DNA of 64,000 bases from Persicimonas caeni (GTDB lineage: Bacteria; Myxococcota_A; Bradymonadia; Bradymonadales; Bradymonadaceae): assembly GCF_006517175.1 (NCBI RefSeq), contig NZ_CP041186.1, positions 310,001 to 374,000 of the forward strand, given 5' to 3'. Under the pieces are notes generated by a model. The model did not search any database. It saw only the letters and a program-made list of their open reading frames with translations, and had not been told where the DNA came from. The translations under genes were made by a program, and so were the position numbers. How positions within the stretch are numbered: position 1 is the first letter of the stretch; every line of letters starts with the position of its first letter. Positions 46,189-50,604 of the stretch are shown one piece after another.

Positions 46189-48873
46189 ATGACGTCGCGT
46201 CTCTTCATCCTGCTCGCCCTCTTGGCGACTCTCCTGGCGGGCCCCTCTGCAGGCTTCGCCCAGGGAATTGAAGGCCCCGCGGCCGAGATCACCCGCGAGA
46301 CGCAACGCCAACTGCGGTCGTTCTCCGAGCAGAAAGCGAATGTCCTCGAGCGAATCGACGCGCTGGCCGAGCAGCCCACGGAAAAGGAGCGCCGCTCGGA
46401 GGTCGACCCCGTCTTCGACGATCTAGTCGAGCTGCGAGCACGTGTGCACGAGGAGTTTCGCGAGGCGCTCGTCGAGGCGAAGGCGGCCGACGAGCCGGTC
46501 CGCGAGGCCCGCGCCGCGCTCGAGGCGGCCCGCGCCGACCTCGAGGTGGAGCGCTCGCGCGAGGAACAACTCGGCGGCTCGCCGGTCTGGAAGGAGCGCG
46601 TCGCAGCGGCGAAGGCCGAGGTCGCCGAGAGCGAACGTGAGCTCGAGCGCGCCAGAGCCGTTCACGAGGCGCGTCAGGAGCGCGTGCGGGAGTACCGCTC
46701 GCATATCACCTTCTTTCCCGAGACCATCTCGCCGCTGCTCGAAAAGATCAGCGCGCCCAAACGCGCCGAATTCTTCGCGATCGACGACGAAGATAACTGG
46801 CGTGAGGCCACCCTCGGCGTCAAAAACGGGCTTCGCACCATCACGGCACGCGCTCACGGGCGCTGGGAGCAACTCACCAGCGTCGACACGACGTCGACCG
46901 ACGTGTGGAGCTGGCTGTGGGGGCTCGTGTGGCGCCTGGCGGTGTGGCTGGCGCTCGCCAAGCTCTTGGTGCCGCTCATCCCGGCGATCACCGAGGGGTT
47001 GCTGCGGCGACGCTGGCTTCGGCGTCACGCCACTTTTACGATCAATATCGCCGAGCTGTTGCGCGCCCTGGCCCGTCCCCTGGCATTCTTTTTGGGCATG
47101 GAGTACGTGGCGGCCTACGTCGCCCAGAGCTTCGCCGAGTTCGAGGGGCTCGTCTGGATCATCGACGCGGTGGTCATCTACTGGGTCGTGGTGGCGGCGG
47201 CCAAAGTGCTCGTCTTGCCCCGGTCGCATCGACGCCAGCAGGGTCACGCTTCGGCCAGCGCGTTCGACAACCTCGACGAAGACGAGGCCGCGGCGATCTC
47301 CGACCTGCTCGTCATCGAACTCGACCGTGCCAAGAAACTCGTACGCAGTGTGCGCGTGGTGGTCGTCTTCTGGCTCTTGTCGGCGTATATCCCCGACTTC
47401 GTCGAGCCGCTGACCGGCATCACCGTCATCTGGTGGCTCGTCGACAAGGTCGCCGTGTGGGGCTTTGTGGGCGTGGTCTACTGGGTGCTGTCGCAGTGGA
47501 AGGACGATATCGCCTCGGTCTTCGAGCGACTGGCCGGCGACGGCTTGCGGCGGCCCGTCGAGTTTGTCCACGAGCACAAGGACCGGCCGTGGGGCGTGCT
47601 CGTCATCGCGGTCGCCTCGCTGTACGTGCTCTTCAAGGAAGTTGGCATCATCGCGCGTCGCTTCGTGCTCAACACCCAATGGTTCAAGCGGGCGAGCGCG
47701 TTTGCCTTTCGCACCAAGATCGAGCTGCGCAACCGCGAGCGCGTCCAAAATGACGGCGGCCAGCCGCTCGACGCGAAGAGACTCCCCCAGGACTACCGCG
47801 AGGTGTTTGAAGACCGTGCGCTCGTCGACGAGGCCTACCGAATCGACCGTGGCACCTACACCGCAGACGTCCTCGCGCGCTTCGAGCGCTGGAAGGCGGC
47901 GCGCCGCCAAGGCTCGGTCATCGTGTCGGGCGAGCCGGGTGTGGGCAAGACGACGTTTCTGAACGGCGTGAGCGCGAAGCTCGCCGAGGCCACCGAGTGG
48001 CCGATGGTCCGGGGTCGCATCGACGAGAAGCTCGAGAGCCGCGAGGGCGTGCTGGACTTTGTCGCCGAGCTCTTCGAACTCGACACCACGCCGAGTAGCT
48101 CCGACGAGCTCATCGCGCAGCTGAACGAGCTCGAGCCGCGCGTGGCGCTCGTCGACGACTGCCACCACGCGTTCACCCGTCAAATCGAGGGCTTCGACAG
48201 CCTCGAGACGCTCCTCGACATCGTCAACCTGTGCGACGAAGCGCACTTCTTCGTGCTCACCTTCAACGGGTTCACCTGGAGCTATATCAACCGCATCGAG
48301 GCGCGCGAGCACTACTTCGGCCAGGTGCTCACGCTCGAGCCGTGGTCCGAAGAGGACCTCGAGCGCATGATCGAGACGCGCACCGCGCACACCGACTACC
48401 TGCCGAGCTTCGCCGACCTCGTCCACGACCAAGTCGACCACGCCGACTACTTCTTCGAAGTGGTCAAGACCGCCAATGGGTACTTTCGCTACCTGCACGA
48501 GTTTAGCGGGGGCAACCCGCGCGTTGCGATGCTCTATTGGCTGCGAAGCTTGCGGCCGACGGGCGACGCGAAGACGCTGCAGGTGAGCCTGTTTCGCCGG
48601 CCGTCGACCGCCGAGTTTTCGAGCTATACCGACGACCATTGGTTCGTGCTCGGCGCGCTCGCCCAGCACGGCGAGCTCGACGTCGACGAGCTAGCCACCG
48701 TGGTGAACGTACCTCGAGGCTTCTGCAACCTTGCGGTCGACTACTTCGCCGAAGCCGGCGTGGTCGACCTCGACCCGGAGAGTCGACGGGCGCGGCTCAC
48801 CCCGCTCTTCTTGCGCCAGGTGCTCCGCCAGTTGTCGAACTCGAATTTTCTGTATGGGTACGGGAACGGGTGA
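46189..48873 (+). CDS. Membrane P-loop NTPase with N-terminal periplasmic coiled coil
   Basis: 894 residues from ATG 46189, which gives a signal peptide (FILLALLATLLAGPSAGFA). Residues about 30-190 are a Glu/Arg-rich coiled coil, followed by roughly six membrane segments between 240 and 475. A cytoplasmic NTPase follows with Walker A GEPGVGKTTF at 581-590 and a Walker B-like VALVDDCHH. The C-terminal 100 residues look like a winged helix (LDVDELATVVNVPRGFCNLA). The first half recalls the periplasmic sensor of MscK/MscM channels. Two MscS genes follow directly, so the three are probably one operon and perhaps one complex. Confidence 0.85.
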   Translation: MTSRLFILLALLATLLAGPSAGFAQGIEGPAAEITRETQRQLRSFSEQKANVLERIDALAEQPTEKERRSEVDPVFDDLVELRARVHEEFREALVEAKAADEPVREARAALEAARADLEVERSREEQLGGSPVWKERVAAAKAEVAESERELERARAVHEARQERVREYRSHITFFPETISPLLEKISAPKRAEFFAIDDEDNWREATLGVKNGLRTITARAHGRWEQLTSVDTTSTDVWSWLWGLVWRLAVWLALAKLLVPLIPAITEGLLRRRWLRRHATFTINIAELLRALARPLAFFLGMEYVAAYVAQSFAEFEGLVWIIDAVVIYWVVVAAAKVLVLPRSHRRQQGHASASAFDNLDEDEAAAISDLLVIELDRAKKLVRSVRVVVVFWLLSAYIPDFVEPLTGITVIWWLVDKVAVWGFVGVVYWVLSQWKDDIASVFERLAGDGLRRPVEFVHEHKDRPWGVLVIAVASLYVLFKEVGIIARRFVLNTQWFKRASAFAFRTKIELRNRERVQNDGGQPLDAKRLPQDYREVFEDRALVDEAYRIDRGTYTADVLARFERWKAARRQGSVIVSGEPGVGKTTFLNGVSAKLAEATEWPMVRGRIDEKLESREGVLDFVAELFELDTTPSSSDELIAQLNELEPRVALVDDCHHAFTRQIEGFDSLETLLDIVNLCDEAHFFVLTFNGFTWSYINRIEAREHYFGQVLTLEPWSEEDLERMIETRTAHTDYLPSFADLVHDQVDHADYFFEVVKTANGYFRYLHEFSGGNPRVAMLYWLRSLRPTGDAKTLQVSLFRRPSTAEFSSYTDDHWFVLGALAQHGELDVDELATVVNVPRGFCNLAVDYFAEAGVVDLDPESRRARLTPLFLRQVLRQLSNSNFLYGYGNG

Positions 48874-48877
48874 CGCG

Positions 48878-49750
48878 ATGTTCACGCACATGACGGCATA
48901 CGCCCTGCTCGCGCAGGCGACGCCCGAGGCCCAGGCGGTCATCCAGACGCTGCAGATGATCAACCTCGGCAAGGTGTTGACCGCGGCGGTGATCATCGCG
49001 CTCGCCTACGGCCTCAACCACCTCGTTGACAACACCATCGAGCGCTTCAGCGAGGGCGTGGCCCGACGCAGGCTCGTGCTCAAGAAGCTGTCGAGCTTCG
49101 CCAAGCTGAGCATCTTCGTGGCCGCGTCGTTTCTGGTGGTCGTCACGTTTTTGGCCGGCAAGGAAGAGGTGCTCCTGGGCGTGATGGGCACCCTGGGCCT
49201 GGCGGTGGGTTTTGCGCTCAAAGACACCGCCTCGTCGATCATGGCGGGCATCTTGATTCTGGTGGACCGCCCGTTCGGCGTCGGCGACCGCATCTACTTT
49301 GGCGAGGTCTACGGCGAGGTCAAAGAGATCGGCCTTCGCGCGGTGCGCGTCCGCACGCCCGGCGACGAGATGGTCTCCATCCCGAACAACAAGTTTCTGA
49401 CCGAAGCGGTCGCCTCGGCCAACGCCGGCAGCCTCGACATGCTCGTGGGCATGCAGTTCTACATCGCGGTGACCGAAGACTTCCAACTCGCCAAAAAGCT
49501 CGTCTACGAGGCGTGCGTTACCTCCAAATACGTCTTCTTGGAGCGCCCGGTGAATATCCTCATCGAGGACGTCGCCCGCGACTCGGCGTTCACCACCGTG
49601 ATCACCTGCAAGGCCTACGTCATCGACACGCGCTTCGAAAAGGACTTCATCACCGACGTCACCGAGCGGGTCAAACGCATGTTCCGAAAGCACGACATCC
49701 AGGCGCCCTACGCCCGCGAGATGATGGTCGAGGAGCCCGAGCGATGCTGA
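48878..49750 (+). CDS. MscS-family small-conductance channel (paralog 1)
   Basis: 290 residues from ATG 48878, five bases past the NTPase stop. Two or three N-terminal membrane helices precede the pore helix (EEVLLGVMGTLGLAVGFALKD), with the family's Gly/Ala packing, then the beta domain (VGDRIYFGEVYGEVKEIGLR; SIPNNKFLTEAVASAN). The ending contains a K/R-rich tail. It should form a heptameric tension-gated pore. The sequence is strongly similar to the next gene. Confidence 0.93.
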   Translation: MFTHMTAYALLAQATPEAQAVIQTLQMINLGKVLTAAVIIALAYGLNHLVDNTIERFSEGVARRRLVLKKLSSFAKLSIFVAASFLVVVTFLAGKEEVLLGVMGTLGLAVGFALKDTASSIMAGILILVDRPFGVGDRIYFGEVYGEVKEIGLRAVRVRTPGDEMVSIPNNKFLTEAVASANAGSLDMLVGMQFYIAVTEDFQLAKKLVYEACVTSKYVFLERPVNILIEDVARDSAFTTVITCKAYVIDTRFEKDFITDVTERVKRMFRKHDIQAPYAREMMVEEPERC

Positions 49751-50604
49751 CCCTACTGCCGACCGTGCTGGCACAAGCGACCCCCGACGCCACGGCTTTG
49801 GCCCAGGCACTGCAGTCGATCGAGTTCGACAAGCTCCTGCACGCGCTGGCCATCGTAGCGGTCGGCTACACGCTCAACCGCCTCATCGAGACGAGCCTGG
49901 AGCGTCTGGGCAAGCAGGTTCCCAAGCGGCGGCTGTTGCTCGAGCAGGTCTCGAGCTTCACCCGGCTGAGCATCTTTGTGCTGGGGACGTATCTGGCGGC
50001 AGCGACCGTGCTCGAAAACCAGAAGAGCGCCGCGCTCGGCGTGATGGGCACACTGGCGGTGGCGCTGGGCTTCGCGCTCAAGGACACCGTCTCGTCGGTC
50101 ATGGCGGGTATCTTCATCCTCGTCGACCAGCCCTTCCAAGTCGGCGACCGCGTGCGCTTCGAGGGGTACTACGGCGAGATTAAAGAGATCGGGCTTCGCT
50201 CGGTGCGCCTGCAGACCCTCGACGACCACAGGGTCTCCATCCCGAACAACAAGTTTTTGACCGAAGCGGTCGCCTCGGCCAACGACGGCGACCTCGACAT
50301 GATGGTCGAGATGAAGTTCCACGTGGCGATGAGCGAGGACGCCGACCTGGTCAAAAAGCTCGTCCACCGCGCCTGCGTGACCTCCAAATATGTCTACCTC
50401 GACAAGCCGGTGGCGATGCGGGTGCGCGACGAGGAGGTCAGCTACACGTTCGTGACGACGGTGACCTGCAAGGCCTACGTCATCGACGCGCGCTTCGAGA
50501 AGGCCTACGTCAGCGACGTGACCGAGCGCGTGAAGCTTGCCTTTCGGCGCCACGGCGTGCAGTCGCCGTATGCGCGCACCGCCGAAGTCATGGCTGAATC
50601 CTAA
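49744..50604 (+). CDS. MscS-family small-conductance channel (paralog 2)
   Basis: 286 residues from ATG 49744, overlapping the previous gene by 7 bases (ATGCTGA), which indicates translational coupling. Shares with paralog 1 the pore block (GVMGTLAVALGFALKDTVSS) and the beta domain (VGDRVRFEGYYGEIKEIGLR, SIPNNKFLTEAVASAN). The pair could form hetero-heptamers or two channels with different thresholds. The 3' end overlaps the convergent lipoprotein gene by 4 bases. Confidence 0.93.
   Translation: MLTLLPTVLAQATPDATALAQALQSIEFDKLLHALAIVAVGYTLNRLIETSLERLGKQVPKRRLLLEQVSSFTRLSIFVLGTYLAAATVLENQKSAALGVMGTLAVALGFALKDTVSSVMAGIFILVDQPFQVGDRVRFEGYYGEIKEIGLRSVRLQTLDDHRVSIPNNKFLTEAVASANDGDLDMMVEMKFHVAMSEDADLVKKLVHRACVTSKYVYLDKPVAMRVRDEEVSYTFVTTVTCKAYVIDARFEKAYVSDVTERVKLAFRRHGVQSPYARTAEVMAES

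Follow-up and report, generated by a model that had tools for sequence, protein, structure and literature searches.

An AAA+/STAND-like membrane protein encoded next to MscS-type channels suggests a two-part, nucleotide-controlled osmotic valve in Myxococcota

In a window of the Persicimonas caeni genome (the whole stretch of 64,000 nucleotides that was analysed; positions refer to it unless a contig or locus is named) we found a gene for an exported, membrane-anchored NTPase directly in front of two genes for MscS-type channels, and the homologues of this NTPase sampled from Myxococcota are nearly all followed by an mscS gene. We consider it fairly probable (roughly 60%) that such a gene pair encodes a two-component MscS channel, in which the NTPase would be a regulatory subunit acting in trans and its nucleotide state would tune the opening. 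The parts are each known; what is new is their joining into a variant of the MscS/MscK channels, and possibly into more than that. In the literature (subscription papers and preprints being outside the scope of the search) no description of the NTPase-MscS pairing was found.

The operon and the anatomy of its products

All three genes lie on the forward strand. Gene 1 (46189..48873; ATG at 46189, stop at 48873) encodes an NTPase-bearing membrane protein of 894 aa, the proposed regulatory or sensor subunit; it is followed by gene 2, mscS-a (48878..49750; 290 aa), and gene 3, mscS-b (49744..50604; 286 aa). The tight packing described in an earlier note on this DNA is borne out by the 7-base overlap of genes 2 and 3, but the gap between genes 1 and 2 measures 4 bases (48874-48877) instead of the 5 given there. 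A promoter scan did not find a sigma-70-like site and is uninformative. The window lies on a single contig of 8.05 Mb, and its kin are Bradymonadales such as Lujinxingia.

By domain content genes 2 and 3 encode MscS-type channels, with tension-gated conductance and a heptameric state predicted. In line with their earlier description as similar MscS proteins, both carry MS_channel_2nd (PF00924; E 1e-19 and 4e-19; 70.6 and 69.0 bits at a Pfam cut-off of 20.2) and are 58% identical to each other. The mscS-a product also matches solved MscS structures (E ~1e-14), and a profile of the NTPase-linked MscS proteins aligns with the pore half of MscK over 243 columns, the pore helix being followed by the beta and then the C-terminal domain (E 7e-23, pairwise profile E-values being uncalibrated). 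From the sequence and this alignment to the MscK pore, the pore helix TM3 region of mscS-a is placed at residues ~96-128 (49163..49261), the exact limits being approximate. Both window channels thus share the MscS beta domain and the pore region with E. coli MscS (YggB); unlike it, they belong to a clade that is confined to NTPase operons and stands apart from the other MscS proteins of the same genomes.

The product of gene 1 starts with a Sec signal peptide (residues 1-26, ending ...SAGFAQ; 46189..46266; boundary approximate), which is plain in the sequence and recurs in relatives. An exported helical coiled-coil bundle follows (residues 30-231; 46276..46881; from AlphaFold2 models and alignment), then a membrane region of six hydrophobic helices (residues ~237-495; 46897..47673; AlphaFold2 and profile comparison), the first part of which matches TM1-4 of MscK. 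The C-terminal half consists of an AAA+ domain of ORC/Cdc6/TnsC-like fold (residues 530-805; 47776..48603; Pfam and structure search) and a winged helix (residues ~815-884; 48631..48840; Pfam, AlphaFold2 and structure search). The AlphaFold2 model has a high confidence (pLDDT 88.9) and comprises the helical hairpin bundle, the membrane helices, the AAA+ domain and the winged helix, so that the coiled coil, membrane segments and winged-helix-like C-terminus of the earlier description are all recovered. Pfam finds AAA_22 at residues 573-685 (E 1.2e-7, above the cut-off) and a MarR_2-like winged helix at 814-868 (E 5e-4, below the cut-off). In the alignment, the exported helical domain of the window member is shorter at its N-terminus than that of most relatives, by ~200 residues. 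A missed longer N-terminus can be ruled out, the first start codon past the upstream stop lying only 9 codons earlier, and a chimeric or frameshifted gene is excluded by the open frame and the confident model.

In the relatives, too, six hydrophobic helices separate the exported bundle from the NTPase, and the charge pattern favours an out-in orientation of the first. An even number of crossings would put the NTPase outside, hence either one helix does not cross or one was misjudged. Probably one of the six is non-spanning, and perhaps it is the last (469-495).

In a structure search, residues 530-890 show an AAA+ fold of the ORC/Cdc6 and TnsC type together with a winged helix (Z ~15), e.g. 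with archaeal Orc1 (2qby_B; Z 15.7, 279 residues, rmsd 7.2) and 7jgr_G (Z 15.6, 245 residues, rmsd 3.4); a helical lid is present as well. Walker A (GEPGVGKT, residues 581-588; 47929..47952) and Walker B (VALVDD, residues 652-657; 48142..48159) are both found, and Walker A, reported earlier as GEPGVGKTTF at 581-590, is indeed intact. Among 80 family members G586 never varies, 71 retain K587, and 59 have Ser/Thr at position 588. In 21 of the 80 the Ser/Thr after the lysine is replaced, and in 8 the lysine itself is an Arg. At position 656 of Walker B, 53 members carry D and 21 carry E. The GNP motif (residues 775-777; 48511..48519; G775 in 80 of 80, P777 in 76 of 80) is a GxP motif, and GxP, here G-N-P instead of the sensor-2 arginine, is a trait of STAND NTPases. 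AAA_16, NACHT and nSTAND matches occur in the relatives (Pfam).

The C-terminal half of gene 1 is therefore an AAA+ NTPase of ORC/Cdc6/TnsC fold with a winged helix and STAND-like traits, for which nucleotide binding is predicted. The family shares with ORC/Cdc6, TnsC and STAND proteins the fold of residues 530-890, Walker A and B, the GNP motif and the winged helix, but differs from all of them in that the NTPase is fused to an exported bundle and a membrane domain, or to an antiporter, and in the altered Walker A of part of the family. It differs from STAND proteins further in the C-terminus: the gene 1 chain stops after the winged helix, and Pfam finds none of the superstructure-forming repeats typical of STAND. 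As judged from the motif, the nucleotide site of the window protein is intact; given the changes in Walker A, some members of the family may no longer hydrolyse nucleotide and only bind it, or may not bind it. Antiporter-fused and some other members have GxxGxGKR or GKG in place of GKT/S, a hint in the same direction.

Conservation and specificity of the gene pair

A search with gene 1 gave matches in 101 of 284 Myxococcota genomes, i.e. a patchy presence in about a third. For the better matches we inspected the flanks of 79 NTPase genes, which were chosen by NTPase similarity alone with neighbours ignored, and MscS proteins in these flanks were detected with a profile built up from both MscS proteins of the window. 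In 75 of the 79 an mscS gene lies directly downstream on the same strand. In two of the remaining four it lies 2.2 and 3.7 kb downstream, one NTPase gene is at a contig end, and one (L029) has no mscS. The earlier note had named NTPase homologues found mostly without neighbouring mscS genes as evidence against its proposal, and this is not what we observe. As the genomes of the window's order contain only 3-11 MscS_2nd matches each, chance adjacency would be expected in well under 1% of cases, and the recurrence of the gene pair rules it out. The exception L029 (G242:C100) shows no mscS in the 0.7 kb left of its 3.3-kb contig and could be a misassembly or a true orphan. No recurrent third partner gene was seen among the flanking genes of the coiled-coil NTPase branch.

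The coupling of the NTPase to two MscS proteins, as noted before, is kept only in part: the NTPase-mscS pairing is general, but two linked MscS in a row are particular to the window and its relatives have one. The window genome itself holds three NTPase copies. The one in the window and a second one (C1:7936340-7938928), which has a single MscS, stand immediately in front of mscS; in the third a single gene intervenes.

In a tree of 98 MscS domains, including 20 unlinked MscS of five genomes, the coiled-coil-NTPase-linked, the antiporter-NTPase-linked and the unlinked proteins form separate groups (supports 0.975, 0.985 and 0.999). Distance matrices of NTPase and MscS are correlated (r 0.80 for 76 pairs, permuted maximum 0.20; r 0.79 for the 65 coiled-coil pairs only, permuted maximum 0.08), a result that is supporting and not decisive, since shared species history feeds the correlation.

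Scanning genome contigs with the whole single NTPase protein gave no match, and a tighter NTPase alignment as query returned 11 loci, each of them in Myxococcota or in an unplaced bacterial MAG. Beyond this phylum the record is limited to plasmids, in which tblastn found three relatives, all in Alphaproteobacteria: Caulobacter sp. NIBR2454 pNIBR24541, a plasmid with conjugation genes (L148, NZ_CP114872.1:71243-84448; NTPase-MscS-MscS), Novosphingobium pentaromativorans pLA3 and Novosphingobium sp. PP1Y Mpl (both NTPase-MscS). The first MscS of each of the three is nested within the linked clade (support 1.0), and the NTPase-MscS pair seems to travel as a unit. The second Caulobacter MscS clusters with ordinary MscS, so this doublet and that of the window have separate origins.

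Relation to MscK and the antiporter-fused sister branch

Modelled alone, residues 1-530 reach a pLDDT of 88.7. The first Foldseek match of this half is E. coli MscK, though a weak one (E 0.1), and MscK also takes ranks 1 and 2 in the structural re-alignment, with Z-scores of 10.6 and 10.2 over 300 and 295 residues (rmsd 9.9), values that we do not use alone because a Z of ~10 can be reached by common helix arrangements in helical models. The alignment places residues 28-448 of the model on MscK 305-682; other structures with similar Z match a helical hairpin only or superpose very poorly. Profile comparison (hhalign) against the aligned sequences of MscK, MscM and six homologues from Myxococcota puts residues 251-393 on MscK 514-637, i.e. 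its first membrane helices, with a score of 94.7 (96.7% over 124 columns), compared to at most 33.8 for decoys (reversed, locally shuffled, antiporter). With the membrane part alone as query the same place in MscK is found with a score of 36 (decoys at most 19), and four subfamilies tested separately each pick MscK 514-649 with scores of 57-80 (decoys at most 41).

The Pfam models for the N-terminal part of MscK/MscM (MscS_porin, MscS_TM) matched none of 40 relatives at E 0.01, and we therefore do not claim membership of MscK. The reading of the operon as a split MscK with an added NTPase, put forward in the earlier note, gains partial, weak support from MscK as the top match among solved structures and from profile scores above all decoys, and none from Pfam. 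Taken together, the N-terminal half of gene 1 shows a consistent yet remote likeness to the periplasmic domain and outer helices of MscK. In MscK, these two parts move as one unit and pull the pore open (PMC9653487). In E. coli, the MscS-type channels MscK and MscM (KefA/YjeP) carry a periplasmic domain together with eleven membrane helices. The window system resembles them in having an exported helical domain and then an outer bundle of membrane helices next to an MscS pore; whereas periplasmic domain, outer helices and pore form one chain in MscK/MscM, here the pore is encoded separately, and an NTPase with winged helix is added.

The NTPase also occurs on a different membrane protein. Eleven homologues of 1350-1676 aa are without the exported bundle. 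Where the N-terminus is intact, the scanned members have a Na+/H+ exchanger domain instead (PF00999; E 3e-15 to 5e-22 in three), followed by an extended helical stretch and the NTPase found in gene 1. In one member of 1350 aa (L111) the Pfam scan gave no antiporter match. The NTPases of this sister branch are monophyletic (support 0.978), and a divergent mscS gene lies directly behind in 10 of the 11 loci. The remaining one is the copy of the window genome, which encodes a 1605-aa protein with Na+/H+ antiporter and NTPase-winged-helix parts (G000:C1 ~2216841-2221655; L040:4842-9656); its divergent mscS lies ~2 kb downstream, past one inserted POTRA-domain gene on the other strand. While the N-terminus of the sister branch is that of a CPA-type Na+/H+ antiporter (PF00999), the branch differs from these antiporters in having the gene 1-type NTPase as its presumed regulatory part, no Kef-type nucleotide-binding domain, and an mscS-like gene behind it. 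The presence of the same NTPase on an antiporter with an adjacent mscS-like gene fits a control of ion flux. Directly upstream of the antiporter-NTPase gene, 7 of the 11 loci (L098:1137-2651, L040:3529-4905, L104, L110, L112, L113 and L116) contain a conserved membrane protein without Pfam match, which looks like another transporter.

Proposed mechanism, alternatives and meaning

We propose that the product of gene 1 would be a dedicated membrane subunit, made up of the exported bundle, an MscK-like peripheral membrane domain and a cytoplasmic AAA+/STAND-like NTPase with winged helix. It would join the MscS heptamer of the next gene or genes in trans to form a putative physical complex, sitting around the heptamer where the additional N-terminal half of MscK sits in cis. 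Control would presumably run from the NTPase to the pore: its nucleotide state, given the predicted binding of ATP, would determine the ease with which the pore opens under tension, or decide if it opens at all. Ion and solute release, and with it a probable osmotic role, would then depend not on turgor alone but also on the energy of the cell or a cytoplasmic signal.

The single dedicated partner at each locus and the NSF-like and ORC-like matches of the AAA+ fold could also be expected of an assembly or quality-control ATPase that inserts, assembles or disassembles the MscS heptamer without gating it. However, other MscS proteins do not need such a helper, a large exported bundle with an MscK-like membrane half is unexpected for a chaperone, and the antiporter-fused branch exists; we regard this explanation as improbable. 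We find it similarly unlikely that NTPase and MscS are only co-expressed and act separately in one stress response, e.g. with the winged helix on nucleic acid as in ORC-type proteins: a winged helix with an ORC/Cdc6/TnsC fold is common among DNA-binding ATPases, but the gene 1 protein is membrane-anchored, its MscS clade is partner-specific, and the adjacency is near-obligatory over large distances and across phyla. About as unlikely in our view is a defence or cell-death switch, in which a STAND-like sensor of infection or damage opens the MscS pore and depolarises or kills the cell, since the STAND-like traits (AAA_16/NACHT/nSTAND matches in relatives, the GNP motif), the plasmid copies and the patchy presence that would suit it are set against the lack of a meaningful PADLOC match (only coiled-coil and P-loop background), of a C-terminal repeat sensor and of recurrent defence neighbours among the flanking genes, against gene pairs and distances that are coherent across the whole phylum, and against the antiporter-fused branch.

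Beyond the two-component channel, the system could represent a new two-chain class of MscS channels gated in trans by a separate MscK-type AAA+/STAND sensor, with a module that, being found on an antiporter as well, would serve as a nucleotide-dependent control of osmotic ion flux in general; we hold this wider reading tentatively and put it somewhat below even odds. As the antiporter-fused branch hints, slow and fast ion efflux may both be under the control of one NTPase module.

The accepted picture of MscS-type channels is that of passive valves which membrane tension opens; the further inputs known are ions, voltage or cyclic nucleotides. If the proposed mechanism is true, a conserved AAA+ partner would tie this emergency valve to ATP or a cytoplasmic signal, and the split MscK would be evidence that the MscS family can work with sensor and pore on separate chains. 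The system further allows a natural test of the puzzling N-terminal half of MscK, which can here be added or removed as a separate protein. The conserved pairing thus suggests a two-part, nucleotide-controlled osmotic valve, for which we found no earlier description.
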